Part shown: piece by piece, positions 21,197 to 62,541 of the stretch
Layout of the letters: every line of letters starts with the position of its first letter
How positions within the stretch are numbered: the first letter of the stretch is position 1
Assembly (NCBI GenBank): GCA_039033415.1
Contig: JBCCCR010000021.1
Location: 1-64,000 of the forward strand
Reading direction: 5' to 3'
DNA length: 64,000 nucleotides
From: Pseudomonadota bacterium
GTDB lineage: Bacteria; Pseudomonadota; Gammaproteobacteria; Xanthomonadales; SZUA-38
Translations under genes and position numbers: made by a program
Notes under the pieces: generated by a model
Told to the model about the DNA's origin: nothing
Databases searched by the model: none
Seen by the model: only the letters and a program-made list of their open reading frames with translations

Positions 21197-23506
21197 CTAC
21201 TGCGCTCTGCCAAGCTGGCGGTAGAAGAATTGCGTGATCGCGGTGACCGCGTACGCGTAGCGATCGCCGCGGCCCTGATGGGCGTGGTTGGTGCCGGGAA
21301 ACAGGACAAGTTGATACGGTTTACCTGCCTCGGCCAAACCGTCGAGCAGCTTGGCGTGCGTGGAAAAGCCAACGTTGCCATCGCTGGTTCCCATCACCAG
21401 CAGAAGTGGACTCACGAGCTGGTCAAGCTGGTTCAGGAGGTTTCCCGCCGCGTAGGCGTCGGGGTTGTCGGCTGGGCTTCCCACCACCATTTCGATCCAG
21501 GCAGCGTGGTCATGAAAATTATTTTCCGGCACGCTGGCAGAAATCGCTCGATAAAATTCCGGCGCCTCGATGCCCGATCGCAGTGCCATATAGCCGCCCC
21601 AGGAGTTGCCGTCGATTCCTAGCCGGTTCAGGTCCATCCAGGGGCGATCGGCTGCCAGCGCTTTCAGTCCAGCAACGTGATCCGCCACGACGCCTTTGGG
21701 CCAGCTTGGGACTCCTCGCATGTTGTATTCCCGCCCACGACCTGGTGTACCCGGTGCATCCATCGCCACCACGACAAAGCCTGCGCGAGCCAATGCCGCG
21801 AGCATGAGCTGGTACTCCGCCCCGGGATACGTGCTTTGGAAGCCGAAGTAGCCGCGCCCCAGGACCTGAGATTGCGGCCCCCCGTAAATCCGCTCGATCA
21901 CCGGATAGGAATTCCCCGGATCGAACCCAAACGGCTTAAACAGCACACCGTGCATTGGAGTCTCGCCATCGGATGCCATGACCACAAACGGTTCTGGCTC
22001 AGACCAGTCATCTCGCAAGGAATCGATAGTGGCGGTTGCGAGGACCAGCGGCTCTCCGGTTCCGTCGGCAGCCCTTAGCTCAATCCGCGGCGGTATTCCC
22101 AGTCCGTGGACCGTATCGATCAGCCATGTTCCGTCACTCGACAGCTCGGCATTATGAAGACCTGGGCCGCGTGTCAGCGTGACCGGTTTGCCGCGTCGGC
22201 CCAACTGGCCCTTGAGTAAGTGTCGGTTGTAGGGCCGATTAGCGTCGGGCTGCGCCGAAAACCAGAACTGTCCATCGTCGCTGATGCGGGCGATGTCGCC
22301 GGCTACCCATTCACCCTGTGTCACTGGTCCGATCAGTTCTCCGTCTCGACGATACCGGTACCAATGCGACCAGCCGGACCGGTCGGAGTACCAGAGAAAA
22401 TCGCTGCTCCCGGGAATGAACCTCAGATTGCGAATGCCGTTCCAGGGAAACTCCACGTAGCCATCGGAGCGGGATTCGGTGAGGACCTTGCGGGCTTCCC
22501 CAGACTCAGCATCTGCGGCCCACAGGGTCAGCTGCCGAAAGTCTCTGGTCGCGCGGTAAAACCAGATTTCCGAGCTATCGGGACTCCAGCCGAGAAACAC
22601 CGCGTAGTGGTCCTTGCCGCCGCCGACCGACACCGGCGTAAGGCTGCGGGACAAAACGTCGTAAACACAGAATTGCGTAATGGGGATCTGCTGTCCGGCC
22701 TTGGCCCAGTAACGAAAATCTTTAGTCTCTGGATGCAACGACAGCCAGTCCACAATCGGCCAGGCGGTCACCTTGGTCTGGTCGTGGGTGCGCAGCGCTA
22801 CCTTAGCGCTGTTGGGAGAGAAGGCCGGTCCAGCGGGCTCCATAATATCGGGCGCGAAATACCAGGGCACATCCTCGGTACCAGTGTCCGTGGCCTGGGT
22901 TAGCTGACCCGTTTGAGCGTCGCGCAGGGCCACATCGTGGTTGCTCAACGTCAGGATCCACCGGCCGTCAGCAGATTGTTCCTCACGGATCGCGTACTGA
23001 ATGGGAAACTGATTTCTTGCTACGCCGATCTGGTCGAAGCGTGCCGTGTTCGACAACGGAATCTCTCTGACCTGCCGGCTGTTGATTTCAACTTCATAGC
23101 GACGGTCTCCGAACGAGACGGTGAGTTGTTGTGTGTCAAAGTCGTAATCGAGCACTCGAATGCCGGGCGAATACCCCAAAGCCAGGTGCTGACCGATTAA
23201 CTCTCGAACCAGGTCAAGGTTCGCCAAGGGATTGCGGGAAACCGGTGTTGTGAGAACCACCTGCCAGATTGCCTGGGTAACACCGTGGTGGTTCTCGGCG
23301 TACCACATGGTTTTGCCGGCCTCAGGCCAGTGGACATCGAGGTCAGGGAGCTGAACCGATTCAGCCATCTGGTCAAGAAACTGTCGGGTTGCGGCCACAT
23401 CAAAGGTCGGCTTAATGGCGTCGGTGGCGCTGGCCTGGTTGAGCAGCGCTCCGGCGACGACAAGCTTGACGAGACAGCCACGCAAAAAGGTACAAACAGT
23501 CATCAT
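21197..23506 (-). CDS. Dipeptidyl peptidase IV-like S9 serine peptidase
   Basis: 769 aa. Signal peptide 1-27, so secreted or periplasmic. Residues about 40-500 form the DPP4 propeller; about 510-769 form the alpha/beta hydrolase domain with Ser635 in DGNSWGGYMA, Asp709 in MGTSDGNVGF and His741 in PGTNHAHQG. The S9B family removes N-terminal dipeptides, usually after Pro or Ala. It leads the minus-strand run into the PepSY gene. Upstream are two TTGTATACAA-like half-matches (23530-23560), so it may belong to the GntR regulon. It feeds the peptide side of the catabolic locus. Confidence 0.92.
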   Translation of the reverse strand: MMTVCTFLRGCLVKLVVAGALLNQASATDAIKPTFDVAATRQFLDQMAESVQLPDLDVHWPEAGKTMWYAENHHGVTQAIWQVVLTTPVSRNPLANLDLVRELIGQHLALGYSPGIRVLDYDFDTQQLTVSFGDRRYEVEINSRQVREIPLSNTARFDQIGVARNQFPIQYAIREEQSADGRWILTLSNHDVALRDAQTGQLTQATDTGTEDVPWYFAPDIMEPAGPAFSPNSAKVALRTHDQTKVTAWPIVDWLSLHPETKDFRYWAKAGQQIPITQFCVYDVLSRSLTPVSVGGGKDHYAVFLGWSPDSSEIWFYRATRDFRQLTLWAADAESGEARKVLTESRSDGYVEFPWNGIRNLRFIPGSSDFLWYSDRSGWSHWYRYRRDGELIGPVTQGEWVAGDIARISDDGQFWFSAQPDANRPYNRHLLKGQLGRRGKPVTLTRGPGLHNAELSSDGTWLIDTVHGLGIPPRIELRAADGTGEPLVLATATIDSLRDDWSEPEPFVVMASDGETPMHGVLFKPFGFDPGNSYPVIERIYGGPQSQVLGRGYFGFQSTYPGAEYQLMLAALARAGFVVVAMDAPGTPGRGREYNMRGVPSWPKGVVADHVAGLKALAADRPWMDLNRLGIDGNSWGGYMALRSGIEAPEFYRAISASVPENNFHDHAAWIEMVVGSPADNPDAYAAGNLLNQLDQLVSPLLLVMGTSDGNVGFSTHAKLLDGLAEAGKPYQLVLFPGTNHAHQGRGDRYAYAVTAITQFFYRQLGRAQ

Positions 23507-23529
23507 TGGCGACTCGGCATCGAATCAAT

Positions 23530-23560
23530 CCGTATACTAAACAGCTTGAAGTGCATACAA
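23530..23560 (-). promoter_or_regulatory. Two weak GntR-type operator matches before the DPP4-like gene
   Basis: CCGTATACTA (23530-23539, with the GTATAC core) and GTGCATACAA (23551-23560) match 7 and 8 of 10 positions of TTGTATACAA, the palindrome found next to the gntR gene. They lie 24-54 bp before the peptidase start. Confidence 0.4.
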
Positions 23561-23611
23561 AACCCTTGGGATGAAAAGACCCGGATTCGTAGGTCCTGGT
23601 TGATAGTTATT

Positions 23612-23631
23612 TACAGTACGATCATACTGTA
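23612..23631 (+). promoter_or_regulatory. TetR-type operator, copy 1
   Basis: TACAGTACGATCATACTGTA: two 8-bp arms around GATC with one arm mismatch. It ends 17 bases before the GTG of the propeller gene. The same 8-4-8 palindrome recurs at 33602-33621 and at 42719-42738, the last beside a tetR gene. It probably overlaps the start of transcription, as expected for repression. Confidence 0.8.
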
Positions 23632-23647
23632 AAAGCCCAGAGAATCA

Positions 23648-24634
23648 GTGAATAAGGAAGTAGCTTTGATTTACCAGCAGAACACGATTGGCGGTGATGT
23701 CGCGGTTTTTGATGAAACGAAAGTCTATAAGGAAGTCGGCCGACTCGATCTCGGCGGCAATTTCAAAGCTGATAGTGTCGCCCTGTCCGCTGACTATGGC
23801 GAGCTTTATGTCAACGGCTCGACTCGGATGCACTGCTGGCAGAACCCGCTGGCAGACAACGAGAGCGTGTTTGCTGCTTTTGACGCCCATACGCTGGAGG
23901 AGCGCTGGCGGGTGCCGCTGGTGGGCCAGGTGGAGCACTTTGCCATCAGTCCGGACCGTCGCTATGTCTACAACGCCCATTACGACCGAAAAATGGTGAG
24001 CCGAGTTGACACCCAGACCCAGGAGGTTACGCCGATCAGCATCGCCAACCTGGGTGGACACAAGGTAAGAGTCTCTGCCGACGGCACCCGTGTCTACGTC
24101 GGCTCTATCGTGTGGGGCTCGCTCGATGAAATCGACGCAGAAAAGATGAAATGGAAACGGCACCTCACCTTTGAAGACAACGTTCGCCCGTTTGCCCTGA
24201 CACCTGATGGGAAAACGGCGTACGTGCAGCTCAGCCGGTTCCATGGCTTCAAAATTGTCGATCTGGAATCCCTTAAGGTGACCGGATCTGTGGACCTGCC
24301 CGAGCTGCCCGCTGACCATCCGGTTTCTGAAGCGCAGTACCCGTTTACCAGTGACCATGGCGCGGAGATTACGCCTGATGGGCGTCACGCTATTTTTCTG
24401 GCAACCACCGGGCACTACGCAGCTGTCTACCGCCTTCCGGAGCTCGAACTGGTCACGACCATAGAACTCGGAATGCAGCCGAGCTATCTGACGGTGTCGA
24501 AAGACTGCAAGCTGGCATATATCAGCTGCCGGGCGTCCGGCGAGCTCTACGTCGTGTCCCTGGAAAACTTTGCGATAAAGCACGTGCTGAAAAATGTCGG
24601 GGCATTTCCCCAGCGGGTCTGCGTCGATCATTGA
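23648..24634 (+). CDS. YVTN-type beta-propeller protein
   Basis: 328 aa, GTG start at 23648 just after the operator. Six or seven short repeats with the pattern S-x-D-x-x-x-x-Y-V-x are visible (SPDRRYVYNA, SADGTRVYVGS, TPDGKTAYVQ, TPDGRHAIFLA, SKDCKLAYIS), which is a YVTN/lactonase-like propeller. No signal peptide, so probably cytoplasmic. The family includes lactonases and binding proteins; there is no visible lactonase active site that I can assign. It overlaps the next gene by 4 bp (TTGA), so the two products are likely made together. Confidence 0.82.
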   Translation: MNKEVALIYQQNTIGGDVAVFDETKVYKEVGRLDLGGNFKADSVALSADYGELYVNGSTRMHCWQNPLADNESVFAAFDAHTLEERWRVPLVGQVEHFAISPDRRYVYNAHYDRKMVSRVDTQTQEVTPISIANLGGHKVRVSADGTRVYVGSIVWGSLDEIDAEKMKWKRHLTFEDNVRPFALTPDGKTAYVQLSRFHGFKIVDLESLKVTGSVDLPELPADHPVSEAQYPFTSDHGAEITPDGRHAIFLATTGHYAAVYRLPELELVTTIELGMQPSYLTVSKDCKLAYISCRASGELYVVSLENFAIKHVLKNVGAFPQRVCVDH

Positions 24635-26028
24635 AGGCCGACGCCGCGCCAAACCCCATTCCGCAGGATGACGTCGCGCGCTGCGGGTTAAGCTGGGCGG
24701 CCAAAGTGGTTTGCTCGGGCGTGTTTATCACGGGCCGCGACCCCGGAGAGACGTTCCGGGCAAGCTGTGCGTGGATGGCTGCATCAGAGGAAATTCTCCA
24801 GGAAGCGACCGAAAACCGAAATGTCGCGGCGCTGATGAACCTGCCGGTAACGATCGAGGTTGACCACGAGCGCCGGGGCGTGCGGCTTGAGCTGGACGGC
24901 GTGGATGCGTACGCGTTTTATCACGCAGATCAGGGATCGGTGGTCTCAAGCAAACCGCACCCTGAGCTGGCTTTTGCGCCGCAGAAGTTGAAAAGAAACC
25001 CGGAAGCAGGTGTCTTTTCAGGTTCGGTCGAAGACCCCGATCCGATATTCCAGCCGGCACTGACCCGCGCCTTTAAAAACAGCTTTCAATTCACCAACGC
25101 ACTGGTTGTGGCGCATCGGGGCGAGATTGTTGCCGAAGCCTATGCTGATGGCTACGACGAAAACAGCCGCTTCGAGGCTTGGTCGATGGGCAAGAGCCTG
25201 GCTGCAACGCTGGTTGGCTTGACTCACCAGCAGGGGCTGATCGATCTCGATGAGCCGGCAGGATTCGCAGCCTGGCAGGCGCCCACCGACCCTCGTCGTG
25301 ACATCCGCGTGCGTGATCTGCTCAATATGGCCAGTGGCCTTGAGTTCACTGGAAGCTACGGTCGGTCAGAAGACCACACCGTCAAAGCCGAAAACGGTCT
25401 GTGCCTCGACCACACGTACGTCTATGCCGGCGGCGTGGACAGCTTCGAGTTTTCTGTCTCCAAACCCCTCGCGCATGCGCCGGGGACCAACGGCCGCTAC
25501 CGAAACTGTGACCCGCTGCTGGCCGTTGGGCTTGTACGCGAACGAGCAGCCGGTGGCGACGTGAAGGAGTTTCTTCATTGGCCGCAGCGGCATCTGTTCA
25601 ACCCCTTGGGTTGCACCGACATGGTGCTCGAGACCGACCCGTTCGGCCACTTTTTGATCTCCGGGCACGACTACGGCACGGCGCGCGACTGGGCCCGCTT
25701 AGGGCAGCTTTACCTTAACCGGGGCTACTGGCAGGGAAACCAGCTGCTGGCGCCGGAATTTGTAGACTTTGTCCAGACGCCTGCTGAGAAGGCGTGGCAC
25801 CACGATCCGTACTACGGCGGCTTTTTCTGCACCAACGCAACCGGCATTATCCCGACGCTGCCCAATGACGCATTCTGGATGTCGGGTGGCGGTCGGCAGC
25901 GGGTGATGATTGTGCCCTCCCTGGATCTGGTCGTTGTGCGGATGGGCCATATCGCGGGCTTTGTCTTTGATTTGGACAACACGCTCAACGAGGTCTATCG
26001 GGAAATTGCCGAAGCCGTGGCCGCCTGA
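24631..26028 (+). CDS. Serine beta-lactamase-fold hydrolase (class C/esterase type)
   Basis: 465 aa, TTG start overlapping the stop of the propeller gene. After an N-terminal segment with WAAKVVCSGVFITGR comes the penicilloyl-serine fold: Ser185-x-x-Lys188 (WSMGKS), Tyr290-x-Asn292 (RYRNCD) and a late SGGG motif near the third-motif position. The family holds esterases, amidases, D-peptidases and true beta-lactamases; the sequence does not say which. It is a paralogue of the product at 30790-32139, with the same N-terminal AAKxxCSGxFIxGR. A TetR-type operator controls this two-gene unit. Confidence 0.87.
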   Translation: MKADAAPNPIPQDDVARCGLSWAAKVVCSGVFITGRDPGETFRASCAWMAASEEILQEATENRNVAALMNLPVTIEVDHERRGVRLELDGVDAYAFYHADQGSVVSSKPHPELAFAPQKLKRNPEAGVFSGSVEDPDPIFQPALTRAFKNSFQFTNALVVAHRGEIVAEAYADGYDENSRFEAWSMGKSLAATLVGLTHQQGLIDLDEPAGFAAWQAPTDPRRDIRVRDLLNMASGLEFTGSYGRSEDHTVKAENGLCLDHTYVYAGGVDSFEFSVSKPLAHAPGTNGRYRNCDPLLAVGLVRERAAGGDVKEFLHWPQRHLFNPLGCTDMVLETDPFGHFLISGHDYGTARDWARLGQLYLNRGYWQGNQLLAPEFVDFVQTPAEKAWHHDPYYGGFFCTNATGIIPTLPNDAFWMSGGGRQRVMIVPSLDLVVVRMGHIAGFVFDLDNTLNEVYREIAEAVAA

Positions 26029-26065: not shown

Positions 26066-27343
26066 TTATCGCGCTTTCGGGACGTCTGACGCCGGTTTCA
26101 GGCGTTGTTCAATGGGATCGTGCATCAAGATGAAAAATGCGATCGCCAGGACCGTCAGCACGAAATTCACGAGAAAAAAGCCAAACCACCCAATCTGCGC
26201 CGCCAGCAGCCCAGAAGCGCCACCTGCAGCGGCAAAACCGAGAAACCAGGTGGATTGCTGGACCGTAAAGTCCGTCCCAACCTGGCCCTCAGATGCCCAG
26301 CCTATGCGAGCGGCATAAACCACCATGCGGATAGGCGCCGTGCAGAGTGCGCTGAAGAAAATGATGCCCATGACTACGGGGGTCGTGACCGCTTCCACAT
26401 GCGCCAGGTAAAGAAAGCCGGGTAACGCCATCGGTGCCACCACCAGCATTACCTTGGCCATCCGCTTTGGGCCGATTCGGGCGATCACCGGTGCCGCCAG
26501 TGCGAGTGAAAGCACGGCTCCCAGGCTGGCAGAAATGCCAATCACAATGCCGATTTGTGATAGCGAAAGTCCCTTAGAGCCGAGAAATGGGCCAATCACC
26601 GCGACCGGCATCTGCACGGTAAAGGAGACACAGAACACCACGGCCAGCACCCACCAGTTGGTCGACCGAGAGAAGAACGCCCGGAGGCGTGTGACGGGCC
26701 GAACGCTTGCGCGGTGATCGGCCGACCGGGCAGGCTCTCGTCGCAGCAGTACCGGCAGGCAGAACAGCAAGAATAGTCCGGCAGCACAAAAAAAGGCCGG
26801 CCGCCAGCCGAAGCGATCGGTCACATACAGGAGGCCGGCAAAGCCGATCAGCTGGCCAAATTCGCGGCCAAGCCAAATCAGAGAGGACCCAAGGCCGCGC
26901 TCTTCGGGCTTCAGGTTCTCAACGATGTATGCGTCCCCGGCGATCTCAAAAGTACTGTAGAAGAGCTGCTTGAGCATTAGCAGCCCGACGATCAGCGCAA
27001 GTGCCTCAAGGCTTGGACGCACCAATCCCACCGCCGCCAGGCAAAGCGCAACGCCCAGCGCGCAGGGCGCCAACCAGGACTTTCGCCAGCCGAACCGGAT
27101 CGAACCATGGTTATCTACCAGGGGCGCCCAGGTCCATTTACAGGCGGTCACCAGCAGAGGCAGGGTGAAGAGGCCCAGATACTCCAGCGGCATGTCGAGC
27201 CGACGCGTGAACACCGTTGGCACCATGACTCCGGTCAGCGTGTTGGGAAGGTCGTGGGCCATCATGAGCGTCATCAGCACGCCATATTTGCGCCAGGTTG
27301 CCCCGTCTCCGGGTAGCCGTAGGCGTTGAAGCAGAGCTGTCAC
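26066..27343 (-). CDS. MFS transporter, AmpG/FptX-like
   Basis: 425 aa with about 12 membrane helices. The loop between helices 2 and 3, PLVDNHGSIRFGWRKSWL, resembles the AmpG and RhtX/FptX signature, whose members import muropeptides or siderophores. It begins 3 bp after the stop of the beta-lactamase-like gene at 27347 and is the last gene of a three-gene minus-strand operon with a BAAT-type thioesterase. Import of an acylated or cell-wall-derived peptide fits that context, but this is inference. Confidence 0.85.
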   Translation of the reverse strand: MTALLQRLRLPGDGATWRKYGVLMTLMMAHDLPNTLTGVMVPTVFTRRLDMPLEYLGLFTLPLLVTACKWTWAPLVDNHGSIRFGWRKSWLAPCALGVALCLAAVGLVRPSLEALALIVGLLMLKQLFYSTFEIAGDAYIVENLKPEERGLGSSLIWLGREFGQLIGFAGLLYVTDRFGWRPAFFCAAGLFLLFCLPVLLRREPARSADHRASVRPVTRLRAFFSRSTNWWVLAVVFCVSFTVQMPVAVIGPFLGSKGLSLSQIGIVIGISASLGAVLSLALAAPVIARIGPKRMAKVMLVVAPMALPGFLYLAHVEAVTTPVVMGIIFFSALCTAPIRMVVYAARIGWASEGQVGTDFTVQQSTWFLGFAAAGGASGLLAAQIGWFGFFLVNFVLTVLAIAFFILMHDPIEQRLKPASDVPKAR

Positions 27344-27346: not shown

Positions 27347-29221
27347 TCAGGCCTGAAAGGTCATCAGGGGTACCCAGCCGTTGACGGCAAACAGCGTCCA
27401 TCCGGATACCAGAATGAGTGCCGACGCGAATGCAAGCGGGCGAGCCGATAGTGGTTGCGTGCTCAGTGCTGCTCGCCAGAGCGCGAACACCGCCGCCAGC
27501 GGCCCCAGCAGGCTCAGCATGAGCAGGCCGATCGATATTGAACTCGGCCGACCGATCGCCACCAGCGCGTCCATGGGTGCGGTGAGCCCGAAACGAACGA
27601 AAAGCCACAGCAACATCGCCATGCTCAGGCCGCTGACCATCAAACCAAAGCTGGCGGTTCCGGGACGCTGCCAGCCGCGCGCCCAGTGACCCGCCCAGCG
27701 AAGGAGCCAGGCCAGTGTTGCACCGACCGCAATCAGGAGGGAGCCCACCAGAAGCCCGAAACGGCCGAATGCTCTTAGGCCGGAAATAGGTTCATAGGAC
27801 TCGTTGCCTACCAGCACGGTTCTGCCGTCTGGGTCCTGAACCAGCGCGTAGACCGGCTCAGGATAATCGCCGACGCGGAAAGTGGTTGGCGTTGTTGGAA
27901 TCAGATCAGCCGTTGGTTCGCCGGGTGCAAGCGGCTGCAGCCTTAGGCCTTCGTCGGTGGCCTCGAGCCGAACGGCTCCGAATACATGCCATAACCACGC
28001 TCGCAGTGGCATGTCGTGGCTGAAAGGCGCGTACCATCCTTCATACGTTCCCAGGCCCAGGTCCTTAGCGGGAATGGCAGGCACCGGTGTTGCCGGTGGT
28101 TCGTTACGGTAGAGGTACGCCCCCAGCAGGCCTCGCAGGCGCCAGCGCAGGCCGCCATCATCACCGTTGATGATCAGGGCAAAGCCGCGTCGGCCTCCTG
28201 GCTCGTAGCCCAGCCAGGTTTGAAAGCCCTCCGTGGAGCCGGTGTGGCCCCAGAGCAGGTGGCCATTTGCCGCGCTGAATTTGAAGGTACCCAGCGCGTA
28301 GCCGGTGCTGGCGACCCCCTGGCGGCCGGCAGCGGATTGTTGGGGTGCCCGCATTTGCTCCAGCCAGGCGTCTGCTAGCTGCAGTCCCGATCTGGAAGGT
28401 TCAGGTTCAGCGTACCAGGCGACCAGCTTTCCGAGGTCGTTGATGGTGGTCACCAGCGAGCCAGATGGGCGAATGGGCATGAGCCATGATTCAGATTCCG
28501 TCACCCCGTCGGGATGATAGCTGCTCGCCAGCGGCGGTCCATCATCCGGCGCGTTTCGAAACGTCGTCTGCTCCATGCCCAGCGCAGCAAATAGATTTTC
28601 CTCTACCCAGGTATCAAACGCGCAGGCACAGGCTTGCTCAATCGCCGCCGCTGCGAGGGTGTGTCCTGGGTTGGCGTAGCTGAAGAAAAACCCCGGCGGC
28701 CAGCGAATCGCCACCTTGCCACGCATCTCGCGGACGTAGCGGTTAATTGGGTAGTCCGGTTCGGAGGTGGCATATTCGTAGTAAGTGGATCCCTCAAGCC
28801 CGCCGGTGTGACCCAGCAGGTGACGGAGGGTCAGCGGGTGTTGTTCCTCCCAGGGGTTTTCCAGCACCACGTCGGGAGCCAGCCGGCTGATGGGTGCGTC
28901 CAGGTTCAGACGCCCCTCGGCCGCCAGCTTGATGGCAGCTAGGGTTGTCAGGTTTTTCGATAACGACCCGGCGCGCAGCCGCGTATCGGCGGTCATCACT
29001 CTGCCCGACGCCACGTCGGCGAGGCCGAAACCGCGGGCGAGGACCGCCTCGCCGTTTTCCACGACGACCACTGCCGCGCCTGGCACCGACGACGCTTCCA
29101 GCATGCTCTGGATCTTTGCTTCCAGATCGTCCAAATCGGTCGGCGATTCCTGAGCAAAAACGCAATCGTTAGCGGTACAAAGGCCGCACAGTAGCCAGAT
29201 TAACCTGCTCAACCGATTCAT
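27347..29221 (-). CDS. Membrane-anchored beta-lactamase-fold hydrolase
   Basis: 624 aa. Signal peptide (cleavage near 24, VFAQ). The catalytic domain (about 28-370) has Ser86-x-x-Lys89 (GSLSKN), Tyr182-Ala-Asn184 and His326-Thr-Gly328. A beta domain (about 385-480) follows, then four membrane segments in the last ~150 residues. This layout is known from PBP4*-like and esterase-like class C relatives. It works on the periplasmic face. The stop of the upstream thioesterase overlaps its ATG by 4 bp. Likely substrates are peptides or ester/amide-linked acyl groups, not necessarily beta-lactams. Confidence 0.87.
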   Translation of the reverse strand: MNRLSRLIWLLCGLCTANDCVFAQESPTDLDDLEAKIQSMLEASSVPGAAVVVVENGEAVLARGFGLADVASGRVMTADTRLRAGSLSKNLTTLAAIKLAAEGRLNLDAPISRLAPDVVLENPWEEQHPLTLRHLLGHTGGLEGSTYYEYATSEPDYPINRYVREMRGKVAIRWPPGFFFSYANPGHTLAAAAIEQACACAFDTWVEENLFAALGMEQTTFRNAPDDGPPLASSYHPDGVTESESWLMPIRPSGSLVTTINDLGKLVAWYAEPEPSRSGLQLADAWLEQMRAPQQSAAGRQGVASTGYALGTFKFSAANGHLLWGHTGSTEGFQTWLGYEPGGRRGFALIINGDDGGLRWRLRGLLGAYLYRNEPPATPVPAIPAKDLGLGTYEGWYAPFSHDMPLRAWLWHVFGAVRLEATDEGLRLQPLAPGEPTADLIPTTPTTFRVGDYPEPVYALVQDPDGRTVLVGNESYEPISGLRAFGRFGLLVGSLLIAVGATLAWLLRWAGHWARGWQRPGTASFGLMVSGLSMAMLLWLFVRFGLTAPMDALVAIGRPSSISIGLLMLSLLGPLAAVFALWRAALSTQPLSARPLAFASALILVSGWTLFAVNGWVPLMTFQA

Positions 29222-30600: not shown

Positions 30601-30631
30601 TTGTGTGCAATTTCACGCCAAAAATATACAA
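30601..30631. promoter_or_regulatory. Two degenerate GntR-type operator matches in a divergent promoter
   Basis: TTGTGTGCAA (30601-30610, 8 of 10 to TTGTATACAA) and AAATATACAA (30622-30631, 7 of 10) lie between the thioesterase start (30567) and the plus-strand hydrolase. They could serve both directions. Confidence 0.4.
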
Positions 30632-33621: not shown

Positions 33622-33630
33622 GATGAGGAA

Positions 33631-40926: not shown

Positions 40927-40928
40927 GC

Positions 40929-51545: not shown

Positions 51546-51654
51546 AATATGGTCCAATGCATACGACAAAATTCGGCGAGACACCATGCCGGGCATTTCC
51601 GGTACGGTCGGTCGGGAATCGTAAAGTAAGCTGCCGGGCAGTCTGAAGCGCGTT

Positions 51655-52659: not shown

Positions 52660-52666
52660 GGCAACG

Positions 52667-54489: not shown

Positions 54490-54533
54490 GGCTCCTCCCT
54501 AAGTCCACAAAAGTGTATTTGATTAAGCTTTTT

Positions 54534-54543
54534 TTGTATACAA
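54534..54543. promoter_or_regulatory. Perfect GntR-type operator in a divergent promoter
   Basis: TTGTATACAA lies between dppA (minus, start 54489) and the enoyl-CoA hydratase gene (plus, start 54554). At 64 bp the whole gap is short, so one bound dimer could affect both. Confidence 0.82.
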
Positions 54544-55351: not shown

Positions 55352-56601
55352 CCAAGCCTGGCGATCAAGCGGGACCTCTGGCCGGTATGAAGGTGCTCGA
55401 GCTGTCGCACGTGATGGCGGGCCCGACCTGTGGACGGCTGCTGGCTGATCTGGGCGCGGATGTCATTAAGCTGGAGCGCCCCGGCGGTGAGGACAGCCGG
55501 CGGATGGCGCCGCCCTGGCAAGGGGACGAGGCGGCAGGCTATCTCATGCTGAACCGGAACAAGCGCGGGATCTGCGTTGATCTAAAAAAGCCCGGCGGCC
55601 TCAAGGTGCTACTCGATCTGGCCGCCCGATCAGATGTGCTGCTGGAGAACTTTCGCAAGGGCACGCTGGATCGGCTGGGCTGCGGCTACGAGGAGCTGCG
55701 AAAAACCAACCCTGGGTTGATCTACTGCGAGATTTCGGGCTTCGGCCGAACCGGTCCCTACGCCAACCGCGGCGGCTTTGATCTGGTTGCGCAGGCGATG
55801 AGCGGCATTCTGAGCGTTACCGGTGAAGGGCCTGGCCGGCCGCCGGTGAAAGCTGGCGTGCCGGTCGGGGACGTTGGTGCCGGCATGTTGGCGGCTATCG
55901 GCATCCTGGCGGCGCATGCGGAGCGACAAGCCACGGGCCTTGGTCAGCGCGTTGACACTTCTCTGCTCGAAGGGTGCCTGTCGTTTATGGCCTGGCCGGC
56001 GGCAACTTTTTTTGCCAACGGTATGGACACCGTTCCCATGGGCACGGCACACCCGCTCGACGCTCCTTATCAGGCCTTTGAGTCCAGCGATGGCTGGCTG
56101 ATTGTGGGCGCGGCCAATCAGGCAAACTGGCTTCGGTTGCTGGACGTTATCGGACGTCAGGAGCTGGCCGAGGACCCCCGGTTTATCGACAACCCCGATC
56201 GCGTGGAGAACCTGCAAGCGCTCATCGAGGTTCTCGAGCCGGTTTTCAAAGAGCGAGGCACCGCTGACTGGGTCGCGCGCCTAGACGCCGGCGGTGTCCC
56301 GTGCGGACCGATCAATCGAACAAGCGACATGCTGCAGGACCCGCATGTTGCTGCACGTCAGATGATCTGCGATGTAGAACATCCGGTCCTGGGCAACGTG
56401 AAAACGATGGGCAGTCCAATCAAGTTCTCCAATCACGACGACCCAGCGCTGACCGCTGCGCCATTGCTCGGTGAGCATACCCGGGAAGTTCTAGCTGAGC
56501 TTGACTATTCTGCTGAGACGATTGATGGGCTGCTTCGTGACGAGGCAATCTTTGCTACCGATACTACCGATCCGGTGGTTACGCTGGCGCAATCAAACTG
56601 A
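55348..56601 (+). CDS. CoA-transferase family III (CaiB/BaiF)
   Basis: 417 aa. The N-terminal ELSHVMAGPTCGRLLADLGADVIKLERPGGED is characteristic. The nucleophilic Asp is in VPVGDVGAGMLA (about 175-183), as in formyl-CoA transferase, unlike the racemase-like relative at 40929-41978. It moves CoA between carboxylic acids, activating a carboxylate without ATP. It is coupled by ATGA to the enoyl-CoA hydratase and overlaps the convergent gntR gene by 23 bp. Confidence 0.9.
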   Translation: MTKPGDQAGPLAGMKVLELSHVMAGPTCGRLLADLGADVIKLERPGGEDSRRMAPPWQGDEAAGYLMLNRNKRGICVDLKKPGGLKVLLDLAARSDVLLENFRKGTLDRLGCGYEELRKTNPGLIYCEISGFGRTGPYANRGGFDLVAQAMSGILSVTGEGPGRPPVKAGVPVGDVGAGMLAAIGILAAHAERQATGLGQRVDTSLLEGCLSFMAWPAATFFANGMDTVPMGTAHPLDAPYQAFESSDGWLIVGAANQANWLRLLDVIGRQELAEDPRFIDNPDRVENLQALIEVLEPVFKERGTADWVARLDAGGVPCGPINRTSDMLQDPHVAARQMICDVEHPVLGNVKTMGSPIKFSNHDDPALTAAPLLGEHTREVLAELDYSAETIDGLLRDEAIFATDTTDPVVTLAQSN

Positions 56602-57250
56602 TGAAGTCCAGGACGCTGTCGGACACGACGTGGGTATGGTCGCGCATGCGGCGTTCCGCTTCTTGCTCATCGCCTGCCAAAATCGCGTCCAACACCGCTT
56701 GATGCTCCTCGAATGACTGACTGGTTCGCTGAGCCTGGCGCAGCTGCCGGCGACGGTACGCGTTGAGCTGGCGAAATAGCCGGTTGGCCACCTCCGCCAG
56801 GACCTCGTTCTGGGTTCCTCGAAAGATGTGCCGGTGAAACTCCAGACTCGCATCGTAGTACTCGTTGGCCGATTCGGGTTTCGCGAGTTCAGCGTAGCCT
56901 TCGTGAACATGCTTGAGCTGAGCTTTCTGCTCATCGGTCATCCGTCGTGCCGCCAGGCGCGCGCAGATCCCTTCAAGTTCTGACATTGCCTCAAACATCT
57001 GAATGAGTCGTGTGACCGGCACCTGCGCCACGACGGCACCACGCCGCGGCCGCATCTGCGCCAGACCGCTGGATGCCAGGTGACGCATCGCCTCCCGCAC
57101 CGGCGTTCGTGATACGTCGAATTGATCGGCGATTTCCTGCTCGTTCAGATGGGATCCAGGCGCTCGCTTTCCACTCACAATCTCATCTTCGATCGCCTGA
57201 GCGATGCGCTGGCTGTGGGTCAGTGCTTCTGCACTGTCAAACTCGTCCAT
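56579..57250 (-). CDS. GntR-family (FCD/FadR-like) regulator
   Basis: 223 aa from the ATG at 57248-57250 (CCGAGAG ahead); a GTG at 57289 would add 13 residues. The winged helix (about 14-75) has PGSHLNEQEIADQFDVSRTPVREAMRHLASSGLAQMRPRRGAVV. The FCD ligand domain (about 85-215) has metal-binding candidates in EFHRHIF and DHTHVVSDSV. Operators of FCD regulators typically have the form T-N-G-T-N3-A-C-N-A; TTGTATACAA fits and lies 55 bp upstream (57305-57314). It is probably an autoregulated repressor of the locus, with an acid or acyl ligand. Confidence 0.92.
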   Translation of the reverse strand: MDEFDSAEALTHSQRIAQAIEDEIVSGKRAPGSHLNEQEIADQFDVSRTPVREAMRHLASSGLAQMRPRRGAVVAQVPVTRLIQMFEAMSELEGICARLAARRMTDEQKAQLKHVHEGYAELAKPESANEYYDASLEFHRHIFRGTQNEVLAEVANRLFRQLNAYRRRQLRQAQRTSQSFEEHQAVLDAILAGDEQEAERRMRDHTHVVSDSVLDFISLIAPA

Positions 57251-57304
57251 GAAACTCTCGGCAACTTTTTTGCCAGTATAACCTTGCACCTATCCGATGA
57301 ATGT

Positions 57305-57335
57305 TTGTATACAATAGCGATCATTTCGTATCCAA
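57305..57335. promoter_or_regulatory. GntR operator in the gntR/oxidoreductase divergent promoter
   Basis: TTGTATACAA (57305-57314) is perfect. TCGTATCCAA (57326-57335, 8 of 10) follows with centres 21 bp apart, the same spacing as the tandem sites at 37636-37666. Confidence 0.82.
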
Positions 57336-57346: not shown

Positions 57347-58351
57347 ATGAAAGTCGCGACTTATCAGGATCACGGCAGTCCGGAGGCGCTTCACGTTGCT
57401 GATTGGCCCGAGCCGGACCTGCCGTCAGGCGAGGTCATGGTGAGAGTCGAAGCGGTCGCGCTGAACGGTTTCGACCCCATGATGCTGGCCGGTTCGACCG
57501 GCCTTAAGGTACCGATGCCCATGGTGCCCTGCGGGGATTTTGCCGGTCGCGTTTGCGCGCTAGGGAGTCAGGTCGATACCCCGCTCAAGGTCGGCGATCC
57601 CGTCACCGGATTTCCCATGGTTCCCGACCGAGGCATGCTTGGTGAAGTCACCCTGGGAGCCGCCAGGGAACTGATCAACATGCCGCCGGACTGCCTGATT
57701 CCGATCCCCGACGGCGTGACGATGACCGACGCCGCGGCGCTGCCTGTCGCCTACGGTACCGCGTTACGAATGATGGAAACCCGCGGCAAGATCAGCCGGG
57801 ATGAGCGGGTTCTGGTTCTTGGCGCAACCGGTGGCGTGGGCGTTGCCTGCATTCAGCTGGCGAAGGCCGCCGGCGCTTTTGTGGTGGCCTGCGGTCGAGG
57901 CAGCAAGGCAGCCGGTCTGACAGCGGTGGGCGCTGACGACGTGATCGATACAGCTCAGGACGACTTTTTTATCGCCGCGCGCGAACGTTACGGCAAGCCC
58001 AGCTATGACGGGAGCGGAGACGGTGGGTTCGACGTCGTAGTGAACTACATCGGCGGGGACACCTGGGCGCCTAGCCTCAAGCTGTTGCGGCGGCATGGGC
58101 GGGCACTGGTGTGTGGCGCCACGGCCGGTTTTAAGCCAGAAACTGATCTGCGCTATCTCTGGAGCTTCGAGCAGCACCTGATCGGCTCCAATGGATGGAC
58201 ACCGGAGGATCAGCAGGAGCTGCTTAGACGCGTGGCGGCGGGGACACTGACACCTGTCGTGCACCAGATACGCCCCATTGAAAAGATCTCGGACGCGTTC
58301 CAGGAGTTAATCGACCGCGAAGTGTTCGGCAAGTCGGTGCTGACGCTATGA
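57347..58351 (+). CDS. Zinc-independent quinone oxidoreductase / enoyl reductase-like MDR protein
   Basis: 334 aa from the ATG at 57347; the longer frame runs antisense through gntR and is rejected. MDR fold with VLVLGATGGVGVACIQLAKAAGAFVVACG (nucleotide-binding, about 160-188) and no structural-zinc cysteine cluster. The family reduces quinones or 2-enoyl compounds with NADPH. Overlaps the thioesterase gene by 4 bp. First gene of a six-gene... in fact five-gene run ending at 62541. Confidence 0.88.
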   Translation: MKVATYQDHGSPEALHVADWPEPDLPSGEVMVRVEAVALNGFDPMMLAGSTGLKVPMPMVPCGDFAGRVCALGSQVDTPLKVGDPVTGFPMVPDRGMLGEVTLGAARELINMPPDCLIPIPDGVTMTDAAALPVAYGTALRMMETRGKISRDERVLVLGATGGVGVACIQLAKAAGAFVVACGRGSKAAGLTAVGADDVIDTAQDDFFIAARERYGKPSYDGSGDGGFDVVVNYIGGDTWAPSLKLLRRHGRALVCGATAGFKPETDLRYLWSFEQHLIGSNGWTPEDQQELLRRVAAGTLTPVVHQIRPIEKISDAFQELIDREVFGKSVLTL

Positions 58352-58764
58352 CCGCCTGGAGCCGAGAACGCCTGCAGGCGCTGCTGGATGCGTCGCCCTA
58401 CATTCGGGGCCTTCAGCTAACGGTGGCCGATATGGACGTTGAGGCGGGTTCGATCAGTTTACGCATGCCGGCCTCCCCGTCGCTGATGCGCAGCGAAGAC
58501 GACGACATGTTTCACGGTGGTCCGGTGGCCGGCCTGATCGACACGGCAGGAGATCTGGCCGTTGCGCTGCGAGTGGGCGGCGGTGTGCCCACGGTCAACT
58601 TTCGAACCGACTATCTTCGCCCGGCAACCGGTGCTTTCCTGATGGCCCACGCCCAGGTACAGAAGGTCGGTCGGCTACTGTCGGTGGCGGACGTCACGGT
58701 GCGCGATGAACGCCGGCGCGTGTGTGCACTGGGGCGGGGAACTTACGTTTCTCAAACGGGCTGA
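58348..58764 (+). CDS. PaaI-like hotdog thioesterase
   Basis: 138 aa. The hotdog motif FHGGPVAGLIDTAGDLAVALR (about 55-75) carries the general-base Asp, and NFRTDYLRPATG marks the second half. The family hydrolyses acyl- or aryl-CoA thioesters, often to rescue CoA. ATGA overlap with the oxidoreductase and TGATG overlap with the ligase. Confidence 0.88.
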   Translation: MTAWSRERLQALLDASPYIRGLQLTVADMDVEAGSISLRMPASPSLMRSEDDDMFHGGPVAGLIDTAGDLAVALRVGGGVPTVNFRTDYLRPATGAFLMAHAQVQKVGRLLSVADVTVRDERRRVCALGRGTYVSQTG

Positions 58765-60260
58765 TGCTATCCAAGAGTTCAAGCAACCTGGCGGATATTG
58801 TCTGGGGTAATCGCGATTCGGAGCAGATTGCTCTGGTCGATGCAGGCCCGGATACGATTAACTCGCGCCTGAGTTACGGCGACGTGCAGCAGGCAATTCA
58901 GTCTTTCCCGAAGGAATTTCGAGGGAAGAGCGGGCTTGAACCGGGGCACCGTGTCGCCGTCGTGGGTAAAAACCAGTCCGCCCACGTGCTGGCGAGCTAT
59001 GGCTTGATGCACGGCGGTTACGTCGCGGTCCCCGTCAATCTCCAGCTCTCACACGAGGCGCTGGAGCACATCTACCGGGTCTGCGACATCGCCGCGACGC
59101 TCGCCGACCGAGCCGGTCTGGAAGCGCTGCCCGCTAGTCTCGCCTCATCAACTCGTCTGCTGGCTCTCGATGAGCCCACGTTTTACGCCGGTCGGGAACC
59201 GCGGCCCGCAACCCAAGGCGGTGATGATGAGGCGGTCGTAATGTTCACGTCGGGCTCCACGGGCCTGCCGAAGGCGGTGCCGATCACTCACAACGGATAC
59301 CTTTGGGCCATGCGGCAGTTCGCCGATCTGATCGACAGTCTCGCCGGGCAGACAGTGTTGGCGGCTGCGCCCTTGTTTCACATGAACGCGCAGTTCCACG
59401 TGCAGGCTGCGCTGGCAGGCGGAGCAACGGCGGTGGTCATGCGGCGATTCGAGGCTGGCCGGTTTCTGGAGCTGATCGTGGAAGAGTCGGTCACCCGCGT
59501 AACCGGAGTACCGACAATGCTGGCGCTGGCGGTGCGGGAGGCTGACCGCCGCGGCGTCAGGCCGATGCGGCACGTCCAATCAGTGGCCATGGGGTCTGCA
59601 CCCCTCAGCGAGGCGCTGGTTCAAGAAGTAAAGAGTCTGTTTCCGGAGGCGGTTATCAGCAACGGCTACGGCACAACCGAAACGGGGCCCGCCCTGTTCG
59701 GTGCTCACCCCGACGGCATACCAACACCGGTGCAGTCTATCGGCTACCCGCTTGCTAAGGCCGGCTGGGATCTGCGCGACGGCAGCGACAAGAGCCAGGG
59801 TGTCCTCTGGGTCAAACATCCAATGACGGCCACAGGCTATCTGGGCGATGTGGCCCAGACCGAAGCGGCCTTTCGCGATGGCTGGTACTGCACCAAGGAC
59901 CGGATGGTTCGTGACGAGGACGGATTTTTCTATTTCGACGGCCGCGCTGACGACATGTTTGTGTGTGCGGGCGAAAACATCTATCCCCAGGAGGTTGAGC
60001 GGCGAATGCTCCAGCATCCGGCCGTGAGGGACGTGGCCGTCGTGCCGGTGCCGGACGAGCTCAAGGGGTATCTGCCCGTCGCTTTTGTCGTGGCAGAAAA
60101 CACGGACGAGGCCACACTTCGCGACCACGCGCTGCGCACAGGGCCGGCCTACGCGCACCCAAGAGCCGTCTATTTTCTTGATCAGCTGCCGCTCGGTTCG
60201 ACCAACAAGGTGGATCGCCAGAAGCTGCAACGCCTGGCGGAGCAAACGTTCCAGCGATGA
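58764..60260 (+). CDS. AMP-dependent acyl-CoA ligase 1
   Basis: 498 aa from the ATG at 58764, which shares one base with the preceding stop. ATP motif FTSGSTGLPKAVPITH (about 168-183), NGYGTTETGP (about 302-311), DGWYCTKDR, and the late GRADDMFVCAGENIYPQEVE. The acid Lys for adenylation is in STNKVDRQKLQ. It activates a carboxylic acid with ATP and CoA. The acyl specificity cannot be read. A second ligase follows with 4-bp overlap. Confidence 0.9.
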   Translation: MLSKSSSNLADIVWGNRDSEQIALVDAGPDTINSRLSYGDVQQAIQSFPKEFRGKSGLEPGHRVAVVGKNQSAHVLASYGLMHGGYVAVPVNLQLSHEALEHIYRVCDIAATLADRAGLEALPASLASSTRLLALDEPTFYAGREPRPATQGGDDEAVVMFTSGSTGLPKAVPITHNGYLWAMRQFADLIDSLAGQTVLAAAPLFHMNAQFHVQAALAGGATAVVMRRFEAGRFLELIVEESVTRVTGVPTMLALAVREADRRGVRPMRHVQSVAMGSAPLSEALVQEVKSLFPEAVISNGYGTTETGPALFGAHPDGIPTPVQSIGYPLAKAGWDLRDGSDKSQGVLWVKHPMTATGYLGDVAQTEAAFRDGWYCTKDRMVRDEDGFFYFDGRADDMFVCAGENIYPQEVERRMLQHPAVRDVAVVPVPDELKGYLPVAFVVAENTDEATLRDHALRTGPAYAHPRAVYFLDQLPLGSTNKVDRQKLQRLAEQTFQR

Positions 60261-61906
60261 CTGCCTGGAAACAGTGGTACCGGGGCGATGAGGACGCGTA
60301 CGAGGGGCGCTGTAAAAACAGCATCGAGGAAATCCTGGCCGAGGCTGAAGCGGATCCAGGCGAGCGGCCGCTGATCACGACGCTGCTCCCCGGCGGAATA
60401 GCCGGGCAGGTGAGCGGCGTGGAATTTGCCCGTCAGAGCCGACGTTTTGGATCCTACCTGCGCAGTACCCTCGGATTGGCCTCGGGGGAAGTGATCGCTA
60501 TCCAGGCACCTAACTGTCTTGGCTACGCGATTTGCGCTGTCGGTGCGCTGCGGGCCGGGCTGGTGGTGAGCAACATCAATCCACTCTACACGCCAACCGA
60601 AACTCGAACGCAGCTGAAGGACTGCGGCGCTGAGACCCTGGTGTTCTGTGACCTGTTTGCCAATCAGGTCATGGAGGCGTGCAAGGGCACTCCCGTAAAA
60701 CGATGGATCGCGATCTCCGTGACGGAGGGATTCTCCTGGCCCAAGAGGACGCTCGTTCGGCTGATTCTGCGCGCCAAGCGTGAACTTCCGAAGCCGATTT
60801 CAGCCGCCGTAAGCCTGACCCACATTGTCCAGTCCGCTTCCGGTGAACTCCCCGAGGAACCCTCCGTGCTCGATACGGCCATGCTTTACCAGTACTCCGG
60901 AGGTACGACAGGTCGCTCCAAGGGCGTTGTGATCACCAGGGGCAACCTCTTCAGCAACCTGTCTCAAGGCACAAGCCTCTGTCCCGAAGTTGTGGCGAAG
61001 CGCGGACGCACATCGCTGCTGGTGATGCCGATGTATCACATGTTCGGTCTGTACATGTGCCTTGCTACGATGATGACCGGAGGTCACCTCGTTCTGGTGC
61101 CCAATCCGCGCCCGCTGTCTATCCTGAAGGTGGCTTTTGACCGTTATAAGCCGGACGTATTTCCCGGGGTCAACACACTGTTTTTGAAGTTGATGGAAGA
61201 GCCCTGGTTTCAAGCTAATCCGCCGGCGCTGGAATTCACCCCAACCGGAGCGACGGCGTTGGATCCGGAGGTTGGGGAAAGGTGGGAGCAGCTCACCGGG
61301 AGCTTTCCGGTTTGCAACTATGGTCTTACTGAAGCGACGACGCTGCTGACGTCCAATCCGGCAGATGGTCGACACCGCAAAGGCAGTGTCGGCATCCCGC
61401 TGCCTGGGACGACGGTGAGTATCCTCGACGTCGACGGCAGCGAAATGCCGACTGATCAGCCCGGCGAAATCGTTGCCCGAGGACCCCAGGTGGCTGCCGG
61501 CTACCTGAATCGACCGGACGCTGATTCGGATACCTTTGCGCTGCAGGGGCTGCGCACCGGCGACATCGGCTATCTGGACAAGGACGGATACCTTTATATT
61601 GTCGATCGCAAGAAGGACGTGATTTTGGTCAGCGGATTCAACGTCTATCCGATCGAAGTGGAGACGGCCTTGAACGAACATCCTGGGGTTCTCGAGTCGG
61701 GAGTGGTCGGTCACCCCTCACGAGACAGCGGGGAGAAAGTTGTGGCCTATGTGGTCCTGCGGACGTCGGCAGTCGCTTTCGACGAGTTGGACGCCTGGTG
61801 CCGCGAGCGACTCGCCGCTTACAAATGCCCAAAAGAATTTCATCGGTTGGACGAGCTGCCCAAAACGCCCATCGGGAAAGTCCAGCGGCGGGCCCTTCGC
61901 TCGTGA
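60257..61906 (+). CDS. AMP-dependent acyl-CoA ligase 2 (FadD-like)
   Basis: 549 aa. YQYSGGTTGRSKGVVITRGN is the ATP motif (about 212-231), NYGLTEATT (about 354-362), GDIGYLDKDGYLYIVDRKKDVILVSGFNVYPIEVE the core motif, and PKTPIGKVQRRALR the C-terminal Lys. Closest in feel to long-chain FadD. It overlaps the previous ligase by 4 bp and the VOC gene by 4 bp (GTGA), so dose is linked. Two different ligases in tandem suggest two carboxylates, for example the side chain and a degradation intermediate. Confidence 0.92.
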   Translation: MTAWKQWYRGDEDAYEGRCKNSIEEILAEAEADPGERPLITTLLPGGIAGQVSGVEFARQSRRFGSYLRSTLGLASGEVIAIQAPNCLGYAICAVGALRAGLVVSNINPLYTPTETRTQLKDCGAETLVFCDLFANQVMEACKGTPVKRWIAISVTEGFSWPKRTLVRLILRAKRELPKPISAAVSLTHIVQSASGELPEEPSVLDTAMLYQYSGGTTGRSKGVVITRGNLFSNLSQGTSLCPEVVAKRGRTSLLVMPMYHMFGLYMCLATMMTGGHLVLVPNPRPLSILKVAFDRYKPDVFPGVNTLFLKLMEEPWFQANPPALEFTPTGATALDPEVGERWEQLTGSFPVCNYGLTEATTLLTSNPADGRHRKGSVGIPLPGTTVSILDVDGSEMPTDQPGEIVARGPQVAAGYLNRPDADSDTFALQGLRTGDIGYLDKDGYLYIVDRKKDVILVSGFNVYPIEVETALNEHPGVLESGVVGHPSRDSGEKVVAYVVLRTSAVAFDELDAWCRERLAAYKCPKEFHRLDELPKTPIGKVQRRALRS

Positions 61907-62541
61907 AGCTCGACCATATCATCCTGGCATGCCCCGACCTTGAAGCGGGGTGCGAAGAGGTAAAGCGCCGCCTCGGCATCGAGCTGGTGACTGGGGGGCG
62001 ACACGAGAACATGGGCACCCACAACGCGCTGGCCGGCTTGAATCAGGGCGCTTATCTTGAGCTTCTGGCACCAGACGCGAAAGGAGTCAGCACTGGGCTG
62101 GCTCAAAAGCTGCGCACGCTGGGGGGCGTGACGCTGTATCACTGGGCTGTCTCACACCCTCAATCGGCGCCGCTTTCCAGGGTCGATGGCATTCTGCCGG
62201 AAAGCTGGGTCCCGGGTCGCCGGAGGCTGTCCGACGGGTCTGAGCTGACGTGGCATCTGATGTTTCCCCAGTCTGACCTAGGCGCTCTGGTACCGTTCTT
62301 TATCGACTGGGGGGACACCCCATCACCCGGAAAACAACTGGAGGCATCGGGGCGACTCGCGGCAATCAGGCTCAGGACCCCTCGTGCCAATGTGCTGGCA
62401 GCTTGGCTGAAGCCGCTGCCTCAAGTACAAATCGAGGAAGCCGCTCAGGGCTCGTGGAGCATCGAGTTGATCAGTGGTGCGGAACGCTGGTCATTAAGCA
62501 GTGTCTCAGACCACCTCGAGGGTATTCAGTCATGGCACTAG
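61903..62541 (+). CDS. VOC/glyoxalase-like domain protein
   Basis: 212 aa starting with the GTG at 61903 (LDHIILACPDLEAGCEEVKRRLGIELVTGGRHENMGTHNALAGLNQGAYLELLAP). This is the Glyoxalase_3-like half of the VOC fold, with His at residue 4 and Glu near 52 as metal-ligand candidates. Reactions in the superfamily range from isomerisation to dioxygenation; the sequence does not decide. It is the last gene of the oxidoreductase-thioesterase-ligase-ligase operon. Confidence 0.82.
   Translation: MKLDHIILACPDLEAGCEEVKRRLGIELVTGGRHENMGTHNALAGLNQGAYLELLAPDAKGVSTGLAQKLRTLGGVTLYHWAVSHPQSAPLSRVDGILPESWVPGRRRLSDGSELTWHLMFPQSDLGALVPFFIDWGDTPSPGKQLEASGRLAAIRLRTPRANVLAAWLKPLPQVQIEEAAQGSWSIELISGAERWSLSSVSDHLEGIQSWH

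Follow-up and report, generated by a model that had tools for sequence, protein, structure and literature searches.

A gene cluster of an uncultured bacterium that places putative D-residue peptidases and acyl-CoA enzymes under shared predicted operators: a candidate regulon for acylated D-peptides

The window analysed here is a 64,000-nucleotide stretch of DNA from an uncultured bacterium of the Xanthomonadales, and the system in question is a block of 32 cluster genes at 21,197-62,541 (~41 kb), counted from open reading frames (ORFs) with Pfam and NCBIfam searches. Families were assigned by the profiles of these two databases, with equivalog cut-offs as given per model. The block contains peptidases, transporters, and receptors together with acyl-coenzyme A (acyl-CoA) genes, and all families named for both halves in a preliminary description of this DNA were recovered. 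Two operator types, A and B, occur at promoters of both halves, and a partial counterpart of the block lies in a genome of another class; together they point to joint control and joint inheritance. The enzymes on the peptide side are:

21197..23506, minus strand: S9/DPPIV-like peptidase (Pfam; bacterial DPP4 relatives; GNSWGG serine motif; N-terminal hydrophobic stretch, putative signal)
23648..24634, plus strand: beta-propeller protein, signal-less, 64% identical to a Parvularculaceae cluster copy
24631..26028, plus strand: S12 beta-lactamase-fold hydrolase, SMGK (Pfam; distant relatives Lsa45 and 6-aminohexanoate-dimer hydrolases)
27347..29221, minus strand: membrane S12 peptidase with SLSK and SYAN motifs, a putative N-terminal signal and four hydrophobic C-terminal segments
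30790..32139, plus strand: S12 beta-lactamase-fold hydrolase, SMAK (Pfam)
36033..37628, plus strand: DAP, D-aminopeptidase-like, S12 plus domain B (Pfam; 1EI5 252 bits)
51655..52743, minus strand: DgcN-like protein, DUF1611 (453 bits, equivalog cut-off 480)
52667..53662, minus strand: DgcA or L-Ala-D/L-Glu epimerase-like protein (381 bits, equivalog cut-off 400)
53659..54489, minus strand: M55 D-aminopeptidase (PF04951; D8, E10, H60, H105, and E136 present)

The S9 protein retains the GxSxGG motif, and SxxK is retained in all four S12 proteins, which are the PF00144 proteins of the block. DAP combines the S12 domain with DAP_B (PF07930, E 3e-21) and the motifs SVTK and YSN, the features of D-aminopeptidase DAP; its score of 311 bits against PRK13128 stays under the equivalog cut-off of 443. 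For the M55 protein, DppA is the nearest solved relative (DppA equivalog 156 against a cut-off of 430), and the five residues listed above are those we take to be the metal ligands. The genes for DgcN and DgcA are adjacent, and the nearest solved relatives of DgcA are an unnamed enolase-superfamily protein and an L-Ala-D/L-Glu epimerase. The pair resembles the DgcN-DgcA route for D-glutamate, from which dgcN has been described in the source excerpted here (PMC12363236), in that both scores fall only slightly under their equivalog cut-offs, DgcA being matched by its NCBIfam name; it differs from that route in sitting with M55 under operator B, beside lipid-oxidation genes. The structure model of the propeller (predicted local distance difference test score, pLDDT, 80.8) resembles many propellers in fold and does not indicate a function.

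The membrane S12 peptidase has 624 amino acids, of which the N-terminus is taken as a signal and the four C-terminal segments are predicted by hydropathy; its structure model (pLDDT 37) is unusable. An S12 domain, a signal-like N-terminus, and hydrophobic C-terminal segments are shared with ClbP (PMC9889268, in excerpt) and with D-stereospecific resistance peptidases (DRP). The block might in that case detoxify lipopeptide or D-peptide antibiotics in a ClbP/DRP-like manner instead of feeding on them, and the peptidase does have distant ClbP matches. ClbP lies outside its best matches, however, other S12 enzymes match it better, and ClbP has three helices against the four segments predicted here. 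Unlike the setting of ClbP, the cluster ORFs scanned include no biosynthetic genes, while three receptors, carriers, and oxidation genes suggest feeding. Detoxification is, in our judgement, barely credible as the purpose of the block.

Uptake and membrane proteins, with one sulfotransferase encoded among them, are as follows:

26066..27343, minus strand: MFS carrier of RhtX/FptX or AmpG type (Pfam, NCBIfam)
32048..32923, plus strand: DUF3100 membrane protein (Pfam; true start possibly later)
32916..33401, plus strand: small membrane protein without family (Pfam search, hydropathy)
33631..36039, plus strand: TonB receptor 1 (Pfam, siderophore-receptor models)
37725..39830, plus strand: TonB receptor 2 (Pfam)
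39820..40968, minus strand: DUF819 membrane protein (Pfam; counterpart in relative L025)
47652..49223, minus strand: TPR-sulfotransferase, following TonB receptor 3 on that strand after 48 bp
49272..51500, minus strand: TonB receptor 3, exceeding the TonB-siderophore cut-off

The carrier had been called AmpG-like; the MFS gene is indeed there, but RhtX/FptX is the better-scoring type (142.9 bits against 121.8 for AmpG, both under their respective cut-offs). Siderophore-receptor models match the TonB receptors, and one of the three exceeds the cut-off. Both results would fit a block that imports and degrades the acylated peptide siderophores of other organisms as a source of iron and carbon, as would the FUR-family gene, TonB receptors, and two PepSY_TM genes immediately upstream (window 11368-21381), which apparently form a separate iron block. 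Set against this, siderophore models match other receptors as well, and inspection of the cluster promoters by eye, with no scan, revealed no Fur-box-like sequence; we regard this explanation as improbable.

The acyl-CoA side consists of:

29218..30567, minus strand: BAAT/acyl-CoA thioesterase-like alpha/beta hydrolase (weak match to solved acyl-CoA thioesterases 4 and 2)
40929..41978, minus strand: family III CoA-transferase (Pfam)
42749..43891, plus strand: acyl-CoA dehydrogenase, nearest solved relative long-chain-specific
43913..45124, plus strand: thiolase (PRK08242, exceeds cut-off)
45070..47277, plus strand: FadJ/FadB-type multifunctional enzyme (Pfam; homologue comparison)
47295..47591, plus strand: SCP2-family lipid-carrier-like protein (50.9 bits), absent from the preliminary description
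54554..55351, plus strand: enoyl-CoA hydratase (Pfam)
55348..56601, plus strand: family III CoA-transferase, nearest solved relative succinate-hydroxymethylglutarate CoA-transferase
57347..58351, plus strand: MDR-type quinone/acryloyl-CoA-reductase-like protein (Pfam, NCBIfam)
58348..58764, plus strand: hotdog thioesterase (Pfam)
58722..60260, plus strand: AMP-forming acyl-CoA ligase (Pfam)
60257..61906, plus strand: AMP-forming acyl-CoA ligase, best matched by long-chain FadD models, under cut-off
61798..62541, plus strand: Glyoxalase_3 domain protein (Pfam)

Among solved proteins, the acyl-CoA dehydrogenase scores 402 bits with a long-chain type and 384 with an unspecified bacterial enzyme, the remainder staying below 260. 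The two regulators of the block and the proposed operators are:

41975..42685, minus strand: TetR regulator (mechanical ORF extends to 42862; likely start near 42685)
56579..57289, minus strand: GntR-FCD regulator that would recognize operator B (Pfam; published FCD site ATGTATACAT)
23607..23636, no strand: operator A, TetR-type palindrome with one mismatch, in a divergent promoter shared with operator B
33597..33626, no strand: operator A with an exact 16-bp palindrome (33604-33619); the probable ATG of TonB receptor 1 follows after 11 bp
42714..42743, no strand: operator A, in the gap separating tetR from the acyl-CoA dehydrogenase gene
23532..23558, plus strand: operator B, tandem GTATAC boxes with a 15-nt gap, S9/propeller divergent promoter
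30603..30629, plus strand: operator B, weak copy in a divergent promoter, outside the training set, window rank 6
37638..37664, plus strand: operator B, before TonB receptor 2
51538..51564, plus strand: operator B, before TonB receptor 3, with an extra box 21 bp upstream on the plus strand
54515..54541, plus strand: operator B, one full and one weak box, M55/enoyl-CoA hydratase divergent promoter
57307..57333, plus strand: operator B, gntR/MDR divergent promoter

Operator A was found by a repeat search as a 23-nt repeat whose copies lie 10 kb apart and contain the palindrome CAGTACGATCGTACTG; the palindrome recurs a third time in the tetR/dehydrogenase gap. At up to three mismatches, CAGTACGATCGTACTG has three matches in the window against 0.15 expected. 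The exact form CAGTACNNNNGTACTG occurs twice in the 6.42-Mb genome, each time in the window, and a search of four other genomes returned no copy. The looser pattern AGTACNNNNGTACT is much less striking, with 13 matches at up to two mismatches against 7.81 expected, a count reached by 5 of 100 shuffles.

For operator B, the three genomic occurrences of the sequence TTGTATACAA all fall within the window; their location rather than their count is notable, because a reversed control sequence also has two places in the genome. Other genomes hold 0 (G001), 2 (G002), 5 (G003), and 4 (G042) such places. When paired GTATAC boxes were searched at gaps of 8-29, only gap 15 gave matches in the window, at four promoters, and four of the five places with this tandem pattern genome-wide lie in the window (reversed control, 2). 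Bare GTATAC is not enriched there (7 against ~9.6 expected from composition); the full motifs, their spacing and their position are distinctive, unlike the bare 6-mer or the looser pattern. A matrix built from four B sites ranked next the extra box at 51,514 and then the weak sites at 30,603 and 54,515 (ranks 6 and 7); its ten best places in the window are all in cluster promoters, and leave-one-out ranks were 4 or 5.

Palindromes around TGTATACA thus stand at putative target promoters including that of gntR itself, as would be expected of an FCD regulon. The published FCD regulator Atu1419 binds ATGTATACAT (PMC7797058, in excerpt), which makes GntR-FCD the most natural candidate for binding B, and TetR for binding A. 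The sites share with that of Atu1419 a 10-bp palindrome around TGTATACA (same excerpt) and differ from it in that the boxes of the block are paired, 21 bp apart, and present at several promoters. L025, L018, and the eight other M55 loci examined showed no B-type TGTATACA site.

Operator A thus stands at three promoters and B at six (two of these weak), and the promoters concerned lie at 23.5 (both operators), 30.6, 33.6, 37.6, 42.7, 51.5, 54.5, and 57.3 kb. By our reading of the gene order, every transcription unit between 21.2 and 62.5 kb has A or B upstream, the coverage at 30.6 kb depending on one weak B copy. No A or B site was seen before the sulfotransferase gene, which could be transcribed from the promoter of TonB receptor 3. 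The preliminary claim that shared operators join the two halves is strongly borne out by A and B with their window-confined exact forms, and joint control of peptide and acyl-CoA genes appears well supported at the level of promoter sequence. For the acyl genes on the GntR side, it is the operators that would tie them to the peptide genes.

Two unrelated catabolic units could also have become neighbours by chance. PF00144 matches are frequent: this genome has 45, and three others have 36, 35, and 25. Four PF00144 proteins in 41 kb are nevertheless an excess, since random placement would give 0.29 (Poisson P ~2e-4). G003, moreover, has D-peptide modules that lack acyl genes (see below). Shared operators confined to the window and the clustering of both gene kinds across classes count against a chance arrangement, which we judge highly improbable.

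That clustering is seen in L025, one of 80 loci kept from 391 named loci in a scan for M55 relatives. It belongs to a Parvularculaceae metagenome-assembled genome (MAG) of the Alphaproteobacteria, another class, and holds 12 of the 32 cluster genes together, of peptide and acyl-CoA kinds alike. Within ~17 kb, the identities are 37% for DUF819, 64% for the propeller, 57% for S12, 60% for MFS, and 42% for the membrane S12 peptidase, and likewise 53% for M55, 48% for the DgcA-like protein, 57% for FadJ, 61% for the thiolase, and 59% for the acyl-CoA dehydrogenase. The SCP2 gene of L025 (35%) directly precedes the propeller and S12 genes, whereas that of the window follows FadJ. A TetR ortholog (37%, 145 bits; next 28 bits among the compared loci) adjoins the dehydrogenase gene, and the gap between them carries an A-like site with a matrix score of 15.9 against a maximum of 11.8 in 60 first-order simulations; a direct-repeat search of L025 gave no clear shared operator. 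To the right of the cluster lie CobN and then genes for a TonB receptor, an amidohydrolase, ornithine-cyclodeaminase-type, PALP-type, and sortilin/BNR-type proteins, and another S12 protein.

The best match of the window FadJ is the copy in the L025 cluster, at 868 bits against 726 for the runner-up in 337 genomes; the paralogue in the window's own genome scores 697 and the next 681 bits (321 genomes), with at most three candidates scored per genome. A clear propeller ortholog was found in one of 385 genomes of the class of L025, namely its own (463 bits; next genome 108 bits), with some match at E 1e-3 in 65 of the 385; at E 1e-12, one of 398 genomes of the window's order has it, the window's own. 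Misbinning of the window or of the L025 locus was considered and is disfavoured by tetranucleotide composition. The cluster halves correlate at 0.59-0.72 with flanks on the same contig and at 0.67-0.70 with contig C46 of the same genome, against 0.40-0.55 with the relative, contig C7 of the same genome being a lower exception (0.45-0.49); because the composition of each cluster is closer to its own genome than to the other, a very recent transfer is disfavoured as well. On this one relative and the affinity of FadJ, joint inheritance of the halves seems supported.

Several observations weigh against a single pathway of this kind. Twenty of the 32 genes are without clear counterpart in L123, L025, and L124 (~59 kb). 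In the L025 region, the unmatched peptide and membrane genes are S9, the second cytosolic S12, DUF3100, DAP, DgcN, and the small membrane protein, where the matches of DAP and the second cytosolic S12 are limited to a distant S12 protein or to those included in the count above; on the acyl side BAAT, both CoA-transferases, the single hydratase, MDR, the thioesterase, and the ligases are unmatched, including all acyl genes on the GntR side, and so are GntR, the glyoxalase, and the sulfotransferase. The single TonB receptor of that region is distant and located past the CobN gene. A close gene set was found in one other genome only, and the full set is rare. In a survey of named M55 loci with a length of 12 kb or more (24 of the 80, being shorter, were dropped), scored by similarity to window or C7 proteins, acyl-CoA-type genes stood at just 7 of 56 loci, and together with S12 genes at 4. 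The high genomic number of PF00144 proteins counts here too, the S12 fold includes esterases as well as amidases, and no gene of the block names the substrate.

The same family also holds D-peptide clusters lacking the oxidation genes, another point against. In G003, the stretches read contain two DgcN-DgcA-S12-TonB clusters but no beta-oxidation gene, the clusters being L162 (G003:C38; S12, S12, DgcN, DgcA, TonB receptor) and L163 (G003:C130; S12, TonB receptor, S12, DgcN, DgcA); their sole acyl-side match is an MDR-type protein with 87 bits to that of the window. Both are distant from the block and not orthologous to it, and they leave the evidence from the operators untouched. They show that a D-peptide module can exist without an acyl part, the mix in the block then being a variant. 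The proposal that both halves form one pathway thus holds in part, upheld by the window-specific operators and by L025, which keeps the halves together, and weakened by G003, whose D-peptide clusters lack the acyl half. At L163:12154-15116, two ORFs look M81-like by reading only. In G001, of the same genus, a DNA comparison with window 36,033-56,000 (20 of the 41 kb) matched only stretches of the dehydrogenase, thiolase, and FadJ, and the order-wide propeller search found no propeller there. A contig scan with DAP as query returned no relatives, and M55 as a marker was found in 2 of 61 relatives and in 6 of 369 genomes of the class, the window's own included.

A second, different cluster lies on contig C7 of the same genome (L018:335-18966). 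It encodes DUF1611, an enolase-superfamily enzyme, M55, a TonB receptor, a 1247-aa S15-S12 fusion with hydrophobic C-terminal segments, another S12 protein, BKACE, a hydratase, TetR, a class III aminotransferase, an amino-acid permease, and a 3-hydroxyisobutyrate-dehydrogenase-type protein. We count its mix of D-peptide genes with hydratase and BKACE in favour of a joint pathway. Two further loci were noted. A Woeseiaceae MAG (L027:1646-16231) is C7-like, with a TonB receptor, MFS_2, S12, a choloylglycine-hydrolase-type protein, M81, M55, and BKACE in a row and a C7-like aminotransferase and permease, and an Emcibacter MAG (L030:3472-16569) has an AMP ligase, M19, a TonB receptor, M55, M81 (MlrC type), S12, gamma-glutamyltransferase, and a hydratase.

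A rival reading does without any lipid: the block would degrade D-residue peptides from murein or non-ribosomal synthesis, and the acyl-CoA genes would only finish amino-acid carbon skeletons such as branched-chain acids or glutarate. The D-peptide clusters of the same family without beta-oxidation genes, the BKACE and 3-hydroxyisobutyrate-dehydrogenase-type genes of C7, the succinate/glutarate type of one CoA-transferase, and the position of M55 beside an Ala/Glu-epimerase-type enzyme all fit it. Such a route would need neither SCP2, a long-chain-type acyl-CoA dehydrogenase, a FadD-like ligase, nor thioesterase-like proteins, and we consider it unlikely. A related known system is the murein-peptide operon dpp-ykf of Bacillus subtilis, which combines M55 and an Ala/Glu-epimerase-type enzyme with an ABC importer, S66, and NlpC/P60. 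The block shares the first two with it and adds acyl-CoA genes, and no ABC importer, S66, or NlpC/P60 family was found among the cluster ORFs scanned.

Microcystin contains D-Glu and D-Ala, and MlrD, of the mlr clusters that degrade it, is a carrier. MlrB of these clusters in sphingomonads is an S12-type peptidase of the 'penicillin-recognizing family' (PMC11070527, in excerpt) and acts on a D-residue peptide with an acyl-type residue, Adda. For one published mlr cluster, a table lists the gene under the name mlrC as M55/DppA-like (PMC9505733, in excerpt). What sets the block apart are its TonB receptors, its beta-oxidation genes, and a pair of regulators with operators, and neither M81 (MlrC) nor an MlrA-type family was found among the cluster ORFs scanned.

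The gene families, motifs, operators with their genomic placement, and the clustering of 12 genes in a second class are all read from sequence, and from these we infer the pairing of regulators with operators, cell location, order of steps, and substrate. Taken together, the nearest solved relatives of the enzymes agree with a peptide that has D-residues and an acyl part, long or branched. A single substrate bearing both parts would explain the block, with D-residues likeliest of the D-Glu and D-Ala type. Such a compound would enter through the outer membrane by TonB receptors 1-3 and be cleaved in the periplasm by the S9 peptidase and the membrane-anchored S12 enzyme, and the MFS, DUF819, and DUF3100 proteins may carry the pieces inward. 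Cytosolic S12 hydrolases, DAP, and M55 could then release D-residues, DgcN/DgcA would turn D-Glu into L-Glu, and the acyl part would be handled by ligases, CoA-transferases, and the BAAT/thioesterase-like protein and oxidized with SCP2, acyl-CoA dehydrogenase, hydratase, FadJ, and thiolase. TetR on operator A and GntR-FCD on B would control the set, meeting at the 23.5-23.6 kb promoter that carries both.

We give slightly better than even odds to the explanation that the block is a catabolic regulon devoted to an external peptide-type compound with D-residues and an acyl part, long or branched. Murein peptides alone do not account for the lipid side, and acylated siderophores, lipopeptides, and Adda-type peptides are candidates. 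More tentatively, and with a little less than even confidence, the block may represent a transferable pathway, not described before, in which two regulators control the import and complete oxidation of one class of acylated D-residue peptides (for example lipopeptides or Adda-like peptides), with SCP2 and the propeller acting on a peptide-lipid intermediate. The individual parts are known, and as far as our searches of open-licence papers show, the joint regulon is without description in that literature. Acylated D-residue peptides are produced by many bacteria and cyanobacteria, and to our knowledge few complete routes are known for consuming them. With defined operators, the propeller as a specific marker, and a candidate enzyme for each step, the consumers of such compounds become testable.

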